Below the pieces are notes generated by a model. That model made no database searches. It saw only the letters and a list, made by a program, of their open reading frames with translations, and was not told where the DNA came from. Below, piece after piece: positions 24,667 through 30,310 of a stretch of 41,035 nt of DNA (within the stretch, counting starts at the first letter, position 1; each line of letters opens with the position of its first letter). A program made the translations under genes and the position numbers. Source of the DNA: Betaproteobacteria bacterium (lineage in GTDB: Bacteria; Pseudomonadota; Gammaproteobacteria; Burkholderiales; SG8-41); the NCBI GenBank assembly GCA_947486575.1, contig CANKUB010000029.1, positions 1 through 41,035 of the forward strand. The letters run 5' to 3'.

Positions 24667-24786
24667 GAGGGATTATCCTGTGTCAGATGCTGGATTGTTC
24701 GGCTTTGATACGCTTAACGACTAGCCATTTTGCGGTATAAATGGTTTTTCGCAAAACAGTTGCGTCGCACACGCTATAGCACAACA

Positions 24787-25755
24787 ATGAACAAGCATTT
24801 GTTTTTATTGATTTTTTTTAGCGCTACCGCCTACGCCACGTTATGCGCTGCGCAGGACTATCCCTCGCGCCCGATACGTTTTGTCGTGCCCTTTCCATCC
24901 AGTGGCGGCGGCGACATCATCATACGTGCCCTGTCACAAAAACTGAGCGAGCGTCTCGGCCAGGCTGTGGTGGTCGATAATCGTTCCGGCGCGGGCGGCA
25001 ATGTTGGCACCGAACTCGTCGCGCGCTCGCCTGCGGATGGCTACACGCTGGTGATGGCCAACATCTCACCCTTTGCCATCAATGCCAGCATCTACAAAAA
25101 ACTGCCGTTTAACGCGATCACGGATTTCACGCCTATTTCGCTGGTGGCATCGTTTCCCAATGTGCTGGTGGTGCATCCGTCCTTGCCTGCAAACTCGTTA
25201 AAGGAACTGGTGGCGCTTGCAAGCGCGCGGCCCGGACAATTGACTTATGCCTCGTCCGGTGCAGGCAGTATCACGCACCTCTCGGCAGAGTTCTTCAGGT
25301 CGCAAGCCCAGCTCGACATTGTGCATGTGCCTTACAAGGGCGGCGGGCAAGCCCTGATCGATCTGATCGCCGGGCACGTGTCGATTTTCTTTAGCAGCTT
25401 GCCTGGCGCGTTGCCGCACGTGCGCTCCAAGCGGCTGCGCGGATTCGTGGTCACTGGCCTCGCGCGCTCAAGTGCAGCGCCAGAAATCCCGACGCTGGCG
25501 GAATCCGGCTTTCCGGCGTTTGAGGCCGCCACCTGGATCGGTGCGGCCGCACCGGTCGGACTCGCGCGCCCCATTCTCAATCGGCTTAACAGTGAGATCG
25601 TTGACATCATGCGTGCGCCCGATATGCGTGAGCGGCTCGTTAGCCAGGGCGCAGAGCCAAAGACTTCGACGCCGGAACAATTTGCCGCTTATATCAAAAG
25701 CGAAAATACGAAGTGGGCGAAAATCGTGCGTGATGCCGGCATAACGATGCAATGA
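24787..25755 (+). CDS. Bug/TctC-type solute-binding protein 3, 322 aa
   Basis: Signal peptide MNKHLFLLIFFSATAYATLC then AAQDYPSRPIRFVVPFPSSGGGDI; Bug motifs VVDNRSGAGGNVGTEL, PADGYTLV and VHVPYKGGGQALIDLIAG follow. The start is ATG 24787, where the signal peptide begins; no good Shine-Dalgarno is present, and the open frame reaches back to 24730. The signal peptide overlaps a minus-oriented copy of the dispersed repeat. The stop overlaps the start of the next Bug gene (ATGA, 25752-25755), and the UGSC selenoprotein gene follows, so the three form one unit. Confidence 0.87.
   Translation: MNKHLFLLIFFSATAYATLCAAQDYPSRPIRFVVPFPSSGGGDIIIRALSQKLSERLGQAVVVDNRSGAGGNVGTELVARSPADGYTLVMANISPFAINASIYKKLPFNAITDFTPISLVASFPNVLVVHPSLPANSLKELVALASARPGQLTYASSGAGSITHLSAEFFRSQAQLDIVHVPYKGGGQALIDLIAGHVSIFFSSLPGALPHVRSKRLRGFVVTGLARSSAAPEIPTLAESGFPAFEAATWIGAAAPVGLARPILNRLNSEIVDIMRAPDMRERLVSQGAEPKTSTPEQFAAYIKSENTKWAKIVRDAGITMQ
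24794..24812 (-). repeat. dispersed AT-rich repeat, copy 9 (in a signal-peptide region)
   Basis: Minus-strand variant AATCAATAAAAACAAATGCT, antisense to the signal-peptide codons of Bug protein 3. Confidence 0.45.
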
Positions 25756-26642
25756 ACGCCGTGCCGCTACGCATTGTTGTCGGGTTTTCGGCGGGCAGTG
25801 CATCCGACGATATTGCCAATCTCATCGCGAAACCGCTGGGCAAAGCGTTGCAGCGCCCGGTCAACATTGAGCGCATCCCCGGCAAAAACGGTGCCCACGG
25901 CGCAATGGCAGTGGCACGTGCACCCGCCGATGGCAATACGCTGTTTGTCGCCACACTTGGCACACATGCCCTGGCGCCACATGTACGCAAAGACTTGCCC
26001 TACGATCCGCAGCGTGATTTCGAACCCGTGTCGCTGCTCACGCAGGCACCGATGCTGATGGCGTGTCATCCCGCACTGCCCGTGCGGGATTTGCCTGACT
26101 TTGTCGCCTACGCTCGCGCAAATCCTGGAATGCTCGCCTATGGCACATCGGCCATCGGTGGCGCGCCGCACCTCGCGGCCGAGCTATTTCAGGCCGTATC
26201 CGGCGTTCAACTGCGACACACGCGCTACGATGAGACACAGCAACTGTATGCCGACCTTGAAGCTGGCCGCATCGCGCTGAGTTTCAACAACATCATGTCC
26301 ATGCTGCCGCGCTGCAATGCGGGAAAACTACGCACATTGGGCGTTACCGCCAGTGAGCGCAGCGCTGTGGCGCTGCAAGTACCCACGCTGGCAGAATCAG
26401 GCATTGTGGGCGGCGAAGTTTCCAACTGGCTTGGTTTGGTCGCGCCGCGCGGCATGGCAGCAGCGCAGGTGGACGCCATCTCAACGGCCGCGCGTACAGC
26501 GATTGGCAGCACTTCCGTGACGGCTGTACTTAGTGCCGCGGGGATTACACCTTGTGGTTCAACACCAGCCGGGTTTGGTCAATTCATGGATGCCGAGTTA
26601 ATCCGCTGGAAACCTGTCGTAACGCGATTCTCCGCAGCATGA
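25752..26642 (+). CDS. Bug/TctC-type binding protein 4 without signal peptide, 296 aa
   Basis: Bug fold recognisable from LRIVVGFSAGSASDDIANLI, APADGNTLFVATLGTHALAP, YGTSAIGGAPHLAAELF and the C-terminal VPTLAESGIVGGEVSNWLGL. It begins MNAVPLRIVVGF, directly at the first strand, with no signal peptide, and its start is translationally coupled to the stop of Bug protein 3. The upstream frame is occupied by its neighbour, so a hidden leader is unlikely. The usual VPYKG loop reads RHTRYDETQQ, so ligand binding may differ. It might act in the cytoplasm, or have lost its leader when the pair arose by tandem duplication. Confidence 0.8.
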   Translation: MNAVPLRIVVGFSAGSASDDIANLIAKPLGKALQRPVNIERIPGKNGAHGAMAVARAPADGNTLFVATLGTHALAPHVRKDLPYDPQRDFEPVSLLTQAPMLMACHPALPVRDLPDFVAYARANPGMLAYGTSAIGGAPHLAAELFQAVSGVQLRHTRYDETQQLYADLEAGRIALSFNNIMSMLPRCNAGKLRTLGVTASERSAVALQVPTLAESGIVGGEVSNWLGLVAPRGMAAAQVDAISTAARTAIGSTSVTAVLSAAGITPCGSTPAGFGQFMDAELIRWKPVVTRFSAA

Positions 26643-26714
26643 ATATCCTGCGGGCATGATAGTGGTGGAAGTTCGTTTTTTGCAGCACAATTCGGAACAC
26701 ACGCAAGGAGCCTT

Positions 26715-28328
26715 TTGGCAAACATCATGACCAATAACATCATCCTCGATCCCGTAGCCCCTTCCGGTCCGGGCACGCAACGGCCTTGGAAAGCGCTCGA
26801 CAGCCTGCAAGGAAAAATCGTCGCCTTCATCGATAACTCAAAGCCCAACTTCAATCACCTCGCAGCCGATCTGGGCGAGCTTCTGGTCAAACACCACGGC
26901 GTCACACGGGTGATCCATCACCGCAAACGCGCCGCATCCGTTCCCGCGCTGGAATCGGTGTACGCCGACATCGAAGCTAATGTCGATTTGGTCATCACCG
27001 GCTCGGGCGACTGAGGCTCCTGCACGTCGTGGAGTGTCCACGACACCGCAGAATCCAACAAGCGCGGCGTGCCCGCAATCACGATTTGCTCCGACCAGTT
27101 CATCGTGCTGGGACGTAAACAACTCAAAGCGCTGGGCAGCGAAGGCCATCCGATCGCAGTGATACCGCATCCGTTCGGCCTGCGCACGCGCGAGCAGGTG
27201 CGTGCCATCGCCGAAACCTGTGTCGCCGATATTGCGCGTATAGCCGTTGACGCCAAAGCGGGCGTGACCGGTAGCAAGACGACGAGCGCACCGGCGCGTG
27301 CCGCGCGTATTGAAGTGCCTGAAGACTCCGATGAGTTCGACCGATTCTGCATTGAACGCAAATGGAGCGACGGCCTGCCGTTGCGTCCGCCGACGCTGGA
27401 TAAGGTCGAGCGCATGATTGCTGCGAGCGGGCGTAGCGCTGAAGACGTCGTCGCCATCGTGCAGCCGGGCTTTGGCGCTGCCACTGTGGAAGGCATCGCC
27501 ATCAATGCCGTTATGGCGGGCTGCCGTCCGGAATACATGCGCACACTGATCGCCGCCGTAGAGGCGTTCACCGACAGGCGCTTTAATCTGCAAGGGATAC
27601 AAGCCACCACCAATCCGGCCACCGCGATGATTATCGTCAACGGTCCCGTAGGCCGTGAGATTGGCGTCAACGGCCATCTGAATTGCCTGGGTCAAGGCGC
27701 ATGGGCCAATGCCACGCTGGGCCGTGCACTGCGATTGATTATGCAAAACATTGGTGGCACCCTACCGGGCGAAATGGATCGCGCCACACAAGGACAGCCG
27801 GGCAAATACACCTTTTGCTGCGCGGAAAACGAAGCCGACAGTCCATGGGAACCGCTGCACGTCGAGCGCGGCTTTGACAAGACTGACAGCACAGTGACCA
27901 TCGTTGGCGCAGCAGGCACAGTGAATTTCAATACGCACGCGAAAGATGCCACAGATCTACTGAAGGTAATTGCGGACAGTATCTGCTTCCCGACCAACAA
28001 TGACTATTATTTTGGCGGTGAACCGTGGCTGCTGCTCGGCCCGGAACACGCAGAAATTCTCGCGCGCGAAGGCTTGAGCAAACGCGACGTGAAATTGAAA
28101 CTGTGGGAAATGTCCAAACTGCACGTAGACCGGCTCGCCGCCAAAGATCGCATGCGCCTGCAGCACACACGCGGCGCAGAGCTGGGACAGTTCGGCGCGG
28201 ACACGAAAATTCCCATTTCTATCAAGCCCGAGGAAGTCAGCATCGTTGTCGCTGGCGGCCCCGGTACGCACTCCGTGCATGTGCCGACGTTTGGCCACAC
28301 ACGTTCGGTGACGCGAAAAATTGTTTAG
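26715..28328 (+). CDS. UGSC-family selenoprotein with in-frame TGA (Sec100), 537 codons
   Basis: Two open segments in the same frame, 26715-27011 and 27015-28328, are joined by one TGA at 27012-27014. Across the junction the protein reads ITGSGD-U-GSCTSWSVHDTA, the motif that names the UGSC (seleno)protein family. Codon use and family-like sequence continue on both sides, so this is not a stop or frameshift. A SECIS-like hairpin follows at 27021-27050. Residues 1-180 are the UGSC domain, with further cysteines such as AITICSDQF. A long C-terminal part (about 190-537) has GLPLRPPTLDKVERMI, VNGHLNCLGQGAWANATLGR and NDYYFGGEPWLLLGPEHAEI; its function is unknown. AAGGAG precedes TTG 26715; ATG 26727 is the alternative start. 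The U-x2-C spacing suggests a thiol/selenol redox centre. It ends the Bug 3 - Bug 4 unit. Confidence 0.87.
27021..27050 (+). promoter_or_regulatory. SECIS-like hairpin for Sec insertion
   Basis: GTCGTGG (27026-27032) pairs perfectly with CCACGAC (27038-27044) around the 5-base loop AGTGT. Below an internal loop, TGC (27021-27023) pairs with GCA (27048-27050). The apical loop begins 18 bases after the TGA and has G at its second position, which fits the described bacterial SECIS pattern (short loop, G in the first two loop positions, about 16-37 bases from UGA). Confidence 0.75.
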
Positions 28329-28418: not shown

Positions 28419-29396
28419 ATGTCATTCATGTCACAAGCGGTTTCGGCGGCGCTGTTACTCGCAGCCACTGGCGCTGCGCAGGCCCAAACTGCGGCCAGCA
28501 ATTTTCCGTCGCGCCCGCTGCGGTTGATCATTCCCATGGGCGCCGGTGGCGCCACTGACATTTTCATACGGACCATCGTGCCCAAGCTGTCTGACATTCT
28601 GGGGCAGCAGGTGGTAGTCGACAATCGCCCCGGCGCCAATGGCGTGATCGGCGATGAAATGGCGGTCAAGTCCGCACCGGATGGCTACACACTGATGGCC
28701 AACTCGCTTGCGATCACCATCAACCCCGGCCTCTACAAACTGAACTACGACATAACACGGGATTTGCAGGGGTTGACGCGGCTGGGCTCCATCGACCTGC
28801 TGATGGGCATACACCCATCGGTGCCAGCCAAAACCGTCGCCGAGCTGATTACACATGCCAGAGCCAATCCCGGCAAACTGAACTACGCATCCTTCGGCAT
28901 AGGCAGCATCTCGCATGTCGCCGGCGAAATGTTTAAACAGGCTTCCGGCACGCAGCTGGTGCATGTGGCCTACAAAACATCGCCGCTGGCCGTGCAGGAA
29001 ACCATCGCGGGGCAAACGCATCTGGTGATCGGCGGCATTTCGTACATGCTGCCGCAGGCACGCTCCGGGCGGCTGCGTGGGATTGCCATATCCTCGATGC
29101 AGCGCTCGACTCACGCGCCGGACATTCCCACGGCACATGAATCCGGACTGCCCAATTTCGATGTCAATGCGTGGTTCGGCACGTGGGTGCCCGCAGCCGT
29201 GCCCAAACCGGTGCTGGCAAAGCTGTATGACGCCATGAGCAAAACCATGAATCATCCCGACGTAAAACCAGCCATTGAGAAACACGGGTACAAAATCGGC
29301 GGTGAATCGCCAGACGAATTTCAAAAATTTGTACGCAGCGAAGTCGAGAAATTCGGCAAGGTGATCAAGGCCGCAGGTATCAAGCCGGAAGGCTGA
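28419..29396 (+). CDS. Bug/TctC-type solute-binding protein 5, 325 aa
   Basis: Short signal peptide (SQAVSAALLLAATGAAQA then QTAASNFPSRP), then [44 protein letters not shown] and VHVAYKTSPLAVQETIAGQ. The usual VPYKG loop reads VAYKT, a small change at the ligand site. AGGA lies before ATG 28419. It follows the UGSC gene after a 90-bp gap and precedes an alpha/beta hydrolase, suggesting an uptake-hydrolysis pair. Ligand unknown. Confidence 0.87.
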   Translation: MSFMSQAVSAALLLAATGAAQAQTAASNFPSRPLRLIIPMGAGGATDIFIRTIVPKLSDILGQQVVVDNRPGANGVIGDEMAVKSAPDGYTLMANSLAITINPGLYKLNYDITRDLQGLTRLGSIDLLMGIHPSVPAKTVAELITHARANPGKLNYASFGIGSISHVAGEMFKQASGTQLVHVAYKTSPLAVQETIAGQTHLVIGGISYMLPQARSGRLRGIAISSMQRSTHAPDIPTAHESGLPNFDVNAWFGTWVPAAVPKPVLAKLYDAMSKTMNHPDVKPAIEKHGYKIGGESPDEFQKFVRSEVEKFGKVIKAAGIKPEG

Positions 29397-29461
29397 TCTG
29401 CGTGGCCTTTCTTTCACCTCATCACGACCTTTAGCAAAATCCGTTTTTGAAGGAGTCTTTT

Positions 29462-30310
29462 ATGTCCCAAATTACTATACGCGGCGCCCACATCAACTAC
29501 GAAATTCTCGGCACCAGCGGCCCATGGGTCGCGCTTTCCCCCGGCGGACGCCGTCCGCTCGAAGGCGTTAAACACCTGGCCGAACGTGTCGCTGCGAACG
29601 GTTACAGAGTGCTGATCCACGACCGGCGCAACTGTGGTGCGTCCGACGTGGCATTTGAAGGCACTGCCGATGCGCCTACCGAGTACGAAATCTGGGCCGA
29701 AGATCTCTATGCCATGCTGAAGCATTTCAATGCCACGCCCGCTTGGGTGGGCGGTGGCTCATCGGGTTGCCGCATGTCAACCTTGCTGGCGCTGCGCCAT
29801 CCCGACGCGGTACGCGGCTTGTTGCTGTGGCGCGTGACCGGTGGCGAGTTCGCGGCAAAGCGGCTGGCCAATCAATATTATCTACAGTTCATCGAACTGG
29901 CGAAGAAAGGCGGCATGGCAGCCGTGTGCGCGAGCGAACATTTCGCCGAGCGCATCAGGCAGCGTCCCGTCAATCGCGAAACCATTCTGAAAATGGACGT
30001 AAATCGTTTTATCGCATCATTCGAAAATTGGGCTCAGGGTTTTCTGGATGACGCCGCAAAGCCGGTGATTGGCGCCACAGCGGCTCAATTGCAATCGCTC
30101 AAGTTCCCCGCGCTGGTGGTGCCCGGTAACGACAAAACACACGATCGCAATATTGGTGAGCGCGCACAAAAGCTTATTCCCGGCAGCGAGCTGTACGTAT
30201 TGTTCCCCGAACATCAGGACATTGATATCGTGCCGCCACAGGAATGGGAATTCAAGGATGGCGAACTGGCCGATGTGTTCGCCAGTTTTATCAAGCGTCA
30301 TTCAACTTGA
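29462..30310 (+). CDS. alpha/beta hydrolase with GGSSG elbow, 282 aa
   Basis: Alpha/beta hydrolase with the oxyanion-side segment VALSPGGRRPLEG, VLIHDRRNCGASD and the nucleophile elbow G98-G-S100-S-G102. The end of the protein (VLFPEHQDIDIVPP) offers a catalytic histidine. The start is ATG 29462, preceded by AAGGAG; the upstream TTG at 29447 has no such site. A cap domain of helices lies at about 130-210. It follows Bug protein 5 at 65 bp. Likely an esterase or C-C hydrolase; the substrate is unknown. Confidence 0.85.
   Translation: MSQITIRGAHINYEILGTSGPWVALSPGGRRPLEGVKHLAERVAANGYRVLIHDRRNCGASDVAFEGTADAPTEYEIWAEDLYAMLKHFNATPAWVGGGSSGCRMSTLLALRHPDAVRGLLLWRVTGGEFAAKRLANQYYLQFIELAKKGGMAAVCASEHFAERIRQRPVNRETILKMDVNRFIASFENWAQGFLDDAAKPVIGATAAQLQSLKFPALVVPGNDKTHDRNIGERAQKLIPGSELYVLFPEHQDIDIVPPQEWEFKDGELADVFASFIKRHST

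Follow-up and report, generated by a model that had tools for sequence, protein, structure and literature searches.

A predicted UGSC selenoprotein with an in-frame TGA in a betaproteobacterial contig, and its possible kinship with selenocysteine-dependent reductases

In a betaproteobacterial contig of 41,035 nucleotides (the window, meaning the whole stretch of DNA analysed), two open segments in one frame were separated by a single TGA. The locus raised the question of whether this TGA is read as selenocysteine (Sec) and, if so, what the resulting two-domain protein would do.

Reading frame, in-frame TGA and hairpin

The features of the gene were, all on the forward (+) strand:
26705-26710, +: AAGGAG, Shine-Dalgarno-like by sequence, 4 nt 5' of TTG 26715 and 16 nt 5' of ATG 26727
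26715..28328, +: UGSC selenoprotein gene (predicted) fused to a C-terminal domain (C-domain); candidate starts TTG 26715 or ATG 26727; stop TAG; PF24696 3e-43
26742..27242, +: UGSC domain (PF24696; residues 10-176, Pfam match), modelled as five alternating strand-helix units
27012-27014, +: TGA codon, predicted selenocysteine (residue 100 from TTG, 96 from ATG), within GSGD-U-GSC
27021..27023, +: Cys of U-G-S-C, proposed resolving cysteine
27026-27044, +: hairpin, putative bacterial SECIS; 8-bp stem 27026-27033/27037-27044, loop GTG 27034-27036, 11 nt 3' of the TGA
27288..28325, +: C-domain, no Pfam family; in almost every unit examined, fused with UGSC or next to it

Translation of 26715-28325 with TGA as Sec gave 537 residues, of which one came from a recoded codon, no. 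100 counted from TTG 26715; ATG 26727 was the other possible start and gave 533 aa with Sec at residue 96. The 537-codon protein headed by the UGSC motif that the earlier note had proposed holds if the start is TTG 26715. The same note had expected normal gene calling to yield a 99-aa fragment and a shortened second gene, and a plain open reading frame listing did cut the gene in two in this way (26715-27014, 99 aa; 27069-28328, 419 aa, GTG start). The annotated genes of Acidovorax sp. T1 and Paracoccus ferrooxidans terminated exactly at the TGA.

All 10 of the nearest orthologues found (L062-L071), at 78-92% identity, kept the TGA. Against these orthologues, dN/dS was 0.02-0.10 for the C-domain and 0.02-0.30 for the UGSC part 3' of the TGA (9/10 comparisons per part, the saturated comparison being left out). 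Because the TGA was kept in the closest orthologues and dN/dS was low, the in-frame TGA was considered to be beyond chance. Several MAG records were titled Bordetella parapertussis or Chitinophaga pinensis (L062, L067, L069, L071 and others; L085, L125); their loci resembled those of uncultured Betaproteobacteria, and the titles look wrong.

Across 79 loci, which were protein-similarity matches in genome contigs (mostly titled Betaproteobacteria or Burkholderiales, with a few Chloroflexi/Dehalococcoidia and several doubtful titles), 90/90 BLAST segments over the Sec codon carried TGA. These segments came from 75/79 loci, the other 4 lacking a covering segment, and the stop codon at the 90 positions was always TGA, never TAA or TAG. 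The translation through the TGA, these 90 positions and purifying selection together confirmed the earlier proposal of a single gene with an in-frame TGA inside SGD-U-GSC. At 107/107 family TGAs the motif was UGSC, UGAC, UGGC or UGTC; this survey was confined to TGA positions and so was blind to Cys forms, which the 90-segment survey could detect.

Cysteine in place of U, which had been suggested as a check, was found in more distant homologues. A recognisable UGSC domain was present in 15/18 plasmid loci of named organisms, with a Cys codon (TGC/TGT) in 12/15 (five haloarchaea, two actinobacteria, two Variovorax, Roseovarius and two Neorhizobium of one species) and TGA in 3/15 (Acidovorax sp. 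T1, Paracoccus versutus and P. ferrooxidans, the two Paracoccus stretches being 96% identical). In P. ferrooxidans, selB lay near the UGSC gene on the same plasmid. Of two genomes outside the order that had the C-domain, G182 showed the Cys form SDCGSC and no SelB above cut-off (SelB absence was examined for G182 alone), whereas genome G178 had two UGSC genes with TGA and SelB above cut-off; judged from their genes, the two genomes would constitute a natural control for Sec decoding. The expectation that only Cys or Sec would occupy this site stood for most homologues and failed for two distant relatives, one from Vibrio europaeus and one from Sporomusa termitida. These share 27-30% identity with the query and read D-M-G-T-S, with Met at the Sec site. 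Both were fused UGSC-like proteins (L174:4902-6584 and L177:4833-6554, respectively) with aconitase X genes nearby, and they are possibly a branch in which the nucleophile was lost.

The 40-nt stretch with the window hairpin had a folding energy of -17.6 kcal/mol (z -2.09 vs. shuffles). For the 107 family sequences, the best stem averaged 7.74, compared with 4.74 when the peptides were resampled with synonymous codons, and 104/107 sequences scored above their own resampling mean. Stem codons were frozen at Ser +5 (TCG 94/94), Ser +7 (AGT 91/92), His +9 (CAC 90/92) and Asp +10 (GAC 90/95), counts that are not independent because the sequences are related by descent; four codons were in use (54, 37, 12 and 4) for Gly +1, outside the stem. 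As background, seven reading frames of the window used TCG for 40/151 and AGT for 15/151 Ser codons. The window register had 8 pairs in 86/107 sequences, 7 pairs in 8, and 2-5 pairs in 13. Folded individually, 3/7 stretches reached z <= -2 (the window, L055 and L051) and 4/7 were indistinct from shuffles (L050, -1.04; L059, -0.66; L053, -0.34; L058, 0.35). The stem was retained with other codons and residues in some clades (L051, L055). Rfam at gathering thresholds returned nothing in the window. Structure and codon constraint together pointed to a bacterial SECIS, with putative SelB binding.

The earlier note had also implied Sec machinery outside the window, and it was present. The genome (G000, 98% complete) carried selA (C47:17391-18758), selB (C47:18804-20696) and tRNA-Sec (C47:21857, anticodon tca, ARAGORN) on one contig, and selD, itself with a TGA, on contig C248. 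The cluster on C47 was flanked by two further UGSC genes. A plain stop, which would leave either a broken gene or two proteins made separately, agrees with the splitting of the gene by ORF callers and with the sequence-based nature of the Sec reading, but was rejected as exceedingly improbable in view of TGA at 90/90 positions and never TAA or TAG, relatives with Cys codons at the site, frozen hairpin codons, purifying selection 3' of the TGA and Sec machinery in the genome. Sequence-level support was strong for the window gene making a selenoprotein with TGA 27012-27014 read as Sec, the product being predicted.

Family membership, partner domain and paralogues

The window protein matched PF24696 'UGSC' (E 3e-43) with 148.3 bits vs. 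a gathering score of 25, which places it in the Pfam family. It missed the equivalog cut-off of NCBIfam NF041046 (117.1 vs. 125 bits); this shortfall bars only the narrow 'equivalog', and the Pfam family still fits. Zhang and Gladyshev reported UGSC as a selenoprotein family in 2008 (PMC2398784), together with a fusion to a domain that was called Unknown_1; in their marine/aquatic survey UGSC was among the most abundant selenoprotein families (255 sequences). The portions of that description available here suggested a Trx-like fold and gave no function. The window gene is therefore a further member of an established selenoprotein family, with a fusion of a type already described, as the Pfam match and the 2008 description bear out for the earlier assignment of the motif. 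The second region had been called one of unknown function: Pfam search of the window protein returned no family over the part beyond the UGSC domain, but a fused domain had already been named in 2008, and the window C-domain is probably that Unknown_1.

Among 114 UGSC matches, 71 were fused to the C-domain, 36 had it directly downstream, 1 was at a contig edge and 6 had none downstream; in 5 of these 6 (L053, L054, L059, L078, L120) it was directly upstream. After merging, 111/112 UGSC units included a C-domain, and 8 additional C-domain units stood alone. Genomic context thus showed the C-domain to be a near-constant partner of UGSC, fused to it in one chain in the window gene. The sole UGSC unit of 112 without a nearby C-domain was L060:1708-2166 (G000:C171). 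In two haloarchaea (L178, L179) one UGSC gene was flanked by two C-domain genes, an arrangement suggestive of a complex that contains two distinct C-domain subunits. The C-domain was present in 3/249 genomes of the phylum, own genome included, and its Cys at local position 79 was kept in 111/114 sequences.

Seventeen UGSC genes, each with one in-frame TGA and one of them running off a contig end, matched PF24696 over cut-off in the own genome; an 18th match (C195) was below cut-off, in a frame without the motif, and was discarded. In 41 genomes searched (own included), UGSC matches numbered 4-58 in all 25 genomes of the same bacterial family, the 58 being a count of profile matches in a draft genome and not of proven selenoproteins, and 1-19 in 3/16 others of the order. 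One TGA was present in every UGSC match among those listed across the 41 genomes. The available part of a 2026 review put the largest predicted bacterial selenoprotein gene set at 63, and the previous largest at 57.

Kinship, neighbourhood and proposed mechanism

In an NCBIfam scan of 61 UGSC proteins, 21 matched TIGR01917, the model for GrdB (best E 5e-4), 6 matched GrdF, 4 PrdB, 4 general selenoprotein B and 1 GrdH. Unrelated models matched in the same scan were an exonuclease (one member, 3e-4), NAD kinase (19 members, best 0.015) and S-methyl thiourocanate hydratase (6 members, best 0.003); single matches prove little because these unrelated models reached similar E-values. PF07355 (GRDB) gave no match at E up to 1 with the window protein or any of the 61 UGSC proteins, and since direct profile search fails, UGSC was not filed in that family.

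PF07355 itself matched in 16/25 genomes searched; the 19 proteins fetched and read through were 18 PrdB-like and one GrdB (G014, U-GTCTRC), with TGA at the place in all. Aligned with the profile of these proteins by hhalign, the UGSC profile scored 44.3 (probability 78%) with Sec aligned on Sec, Sec having been entered as Cys on both sides, which favours that column. Controls scored 14.9 +/- 2.1 (40 column-shuffled profiles; max 18.5), 17.5 (reversed profile) and <=24.9 (17 other families). The score was 36.4 (54%) with GrdB alone and 29.5 (13%) with the PrdB-like proteins alone, the latter not much higher than the top-scoring decoy family (24.9); the similarity thus depends mainly on GrdB, a single sequence. 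Profile comparison supported reading the UGSC domain as a remote homologue of the GrdB/PrdB Sec domain.

The own genome and its relatives carried separate PrdB-like selenoproteins besides UGSC. In these (L151, at G000:C244:4087-4299, and L142-L159) the TGA preceded PNCTC (PVCTC in L155) and the C-terminal part was longer; L152 had Tyr instead of the first Cys.

AlphaFold2 modelled the UGSC domain (pLDDT 88) as five alternating strand-helix units, with Sec starting a helix after a strand. Foldseek with the whole model returned nothing convincing (1579 matches at E up to 10, the best 50 with query-normalised TM-scores <=0.21), and PDB sequence searches gave one match each (E 0.79 and 0.53), both judged to be chance. 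The C-domain model was confident (pLDDT 91), and its top fold matches were class I fumarases (E 4e-4 and 1e-3), a kinship not accepted as the TM-scores, 0.20-0.31, were too low for a shared fold.

The window gene lay among genes of substrate-binding proteins on the same strand:
24730..25755, +: TctC (Bug) substrate-binding protein, PF03401 1.9e-71
25752..26642, +: TctC (Bug) substrate-binding protein, 4 bp overlap with the preceding TctC gene, PF03401 1.2e-48
28419..29396, +: TctC (Bug) substrate-binding protein, 90 bp downstream of the UGSC gene, PF03401 1.4e-64
29447..30310, +: alpha/beta hydrolase, possible member of the transcription unit, PF00561 3.6e-12

TctC genes adjoined 57/96 units vs. 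241/683 background genes (odds ratio 2.7), an enrichment kept as modest, with a p-value that is too small, because the loci are related and TctC is extremely common. TctC receptors were hugely expanded in the own genome, where 150 of 693 first-look candidates were scored and all 150 were over cut-off. The 38 same-strand non-TctC neighbours (43 minus 5 C-domain rows) were of mixed Pfam families, of which 25 of 51 were listed, among them aldo/keto reductase (4), alpha/beta hydrolase (3) and MmgE/PrpD (2). In other lineages the neighbours included aconitase X, CoA transferases and CoA ester lyases, besides TRAP/TAXI or dicarboxylate-symporter genes. Phosphosulfolactate synthase annotations lay within 4 kb of UGSC genes in Natrinema zhouii and Arthrobacter (L169, L184) and are a possible clue to the substrate.

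A bacterial genome usually has one to three trxB genes. For that reason, a TrxB-like gene in 9/21 of the plasmid and G178/G182 loci (two of the nine from one species) appeared high against that usual number. The TIGR01292 cut-off was passed in 4/6 of the TrxB-like proteins scanned (Arthrobacter, Roseovarius, Variovorax SRS16 and G182, the G182 gene being ~4 kb away on the opposite strand). The other two of the six, from Haloterrigena and V. boronicumulans, and a G178 protein scanned separately were below that cut-off with TIGR01292 as their best match, and the two Neorhizobium matches came from phmmer alone. Gene order in Arthrobacter was trxB-trxA-C-domain-UGSC. In the own genome a TrxB-like gene, with a UGSC unit 259 bp away, lay between selB and tRNA-Sec; just 2/97 loci of the window's own group had one, at a slightly stricter threshold.

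The mechanism best fitting these observations, with a probability of about 0.58, is a thioredoxin-fed Sec-nucleophile reductase acting on imported small acids. SelB and tRNA-Sec would place selenocysteine at TGA 27012-27014 under the direction of the hairpin (27026-27044), and the C-domain would bind and activate a small carboxylate delivered by receptors of the TctC or TRAP type. The Sec selenolate would then attack the carboxylate, with reductive cleavage of a C-X bond to an Se-C adduct; the Cys of U-G-S-C would free the product, leaving an Se-S bond that the thioredoxin reductase/thioredoxin pair would reduce. Diverged paralogues would take different substrates. In the available part of the published proposal for D-proline reductase, Sec attacks the alpha carbon to form a selenoether, release is by a Cys of PrdB, and the mixed selenide-sulfide is then reduced again; in glycine reduction, thioredoxin reductase and thioredoxin take part (PMC3091704). 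The matches to unrelated models and the thin PrdB-only margin slightly reduced confidence in this mechanism, and Met-Gly-Thr-Ser at the active motif in two distant members is unexplained by the proposed chemistry.

An unlikely reading, though the better of the two that compete with the reductase, is a thioredoxin-like redox protein of the general peroxidase or disulfide reductase kind. The UxxC motif, the TrxB/TrxA genes nearby and the suggestion made in the available portions of the 2008 paper (PMC2398784) agree with it; the modelled strand-helix order is not that of thioredoxin, so that the Trx-like fold was rejected for want of support, and profile kinship points instead to GrdB/PrdB. A general peroxidase would moreover leave the near-constant 345-aa partner, the solute-binding neighbours and 17 diverged copies in one genome unaccounted for.

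Slightly less probable still is a Sec-dependent enzyme other than a reductase, in which Sec or Cys would be the nucleophile or base of a lyase, racemase or hydro-lyase and the C-domain a fumarase-like lyase part. Class I fumarases were the best fold matches of the C-domain, and genes for aconitase X, CoA ester lyase, isocitrate lyase-type and MmgE/PrpD proteins were neighbours, but the TM-scores do not carry a shared-fold claim, no fumarase model was among the Pfam or NCBIfam matches, and the thioredoxin reductase neighbours indicate redox turnover.

Meaning and comparison with known systems

The Sec-nucleophile reductase can be placed more broadly, in a proposal that is tentative and held with less confidence than the mechanism. 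Next to glycine reductase and D-proline reductase, UGSC with its C-domain may form a third group of Sec-nucleophile reductases, thioredoxin-driven, extending beyond classical Stickland fermenters (Cys forms in haloarchaea and actinobacteria) and radiated in uncultured Betaproteobacteria to tens of paralogues per genome, many adjoining an uptake receptor. If this is true, an entire catabolic repertoire would be dominated by a single selenoprotein family. The GrdB/PrdB kinship, the fixed partner and the thioredoxin reductase neighbours would replace 'function unknown' with a concrete reductase hypothesis, which is open to test on Cys versions with no selenium system required. What makes the gene interesting is this hypothesis about function, together with the large number of paralogues.

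Compared with the UGSC family as described in 2008 (PF24696/NF041046; PMC2398784), the window gene shared the sequence family, the Sec motif and, probably, the fusion to Unknown_1. The GrdB kinship, the thioredoxin reductase neighbours and the constant C-domain pairing were absent from the available portions of that description, and the window's bacterial family differed in having 4-58 matches per genome. Relative to those portions, the present analysis added the C-domain pairing (111/112), the GrdB/PrdB kinship, the non-thioredoxin model, the TrxB-like neighbours (9/21) and the number of matches per genome; the GrdB or TrxB link, or the UGSC expansion of the window's lineage, may have been published already.

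Class I fumarases resembled the C-domain in a weak structural match, but with TM-scores of 0.20-0.31 and no sequence match. GrdB and PrdB (PF07355, TIGR01917, TIGR04483) shared with UGSC a U-x-x-C followed by Thr (UGTCT in the G014 GrdB, UGSCT in the window gene), whereas UGSC had no PF07355 match, a smaller Sec protein and a different partner domain. Set against the chemistry proposed for glycine and D-proline reductase, UGSC had its Sec at the matching place, the Cys of U-x-x-C and thioredoxin-system genes nearby.
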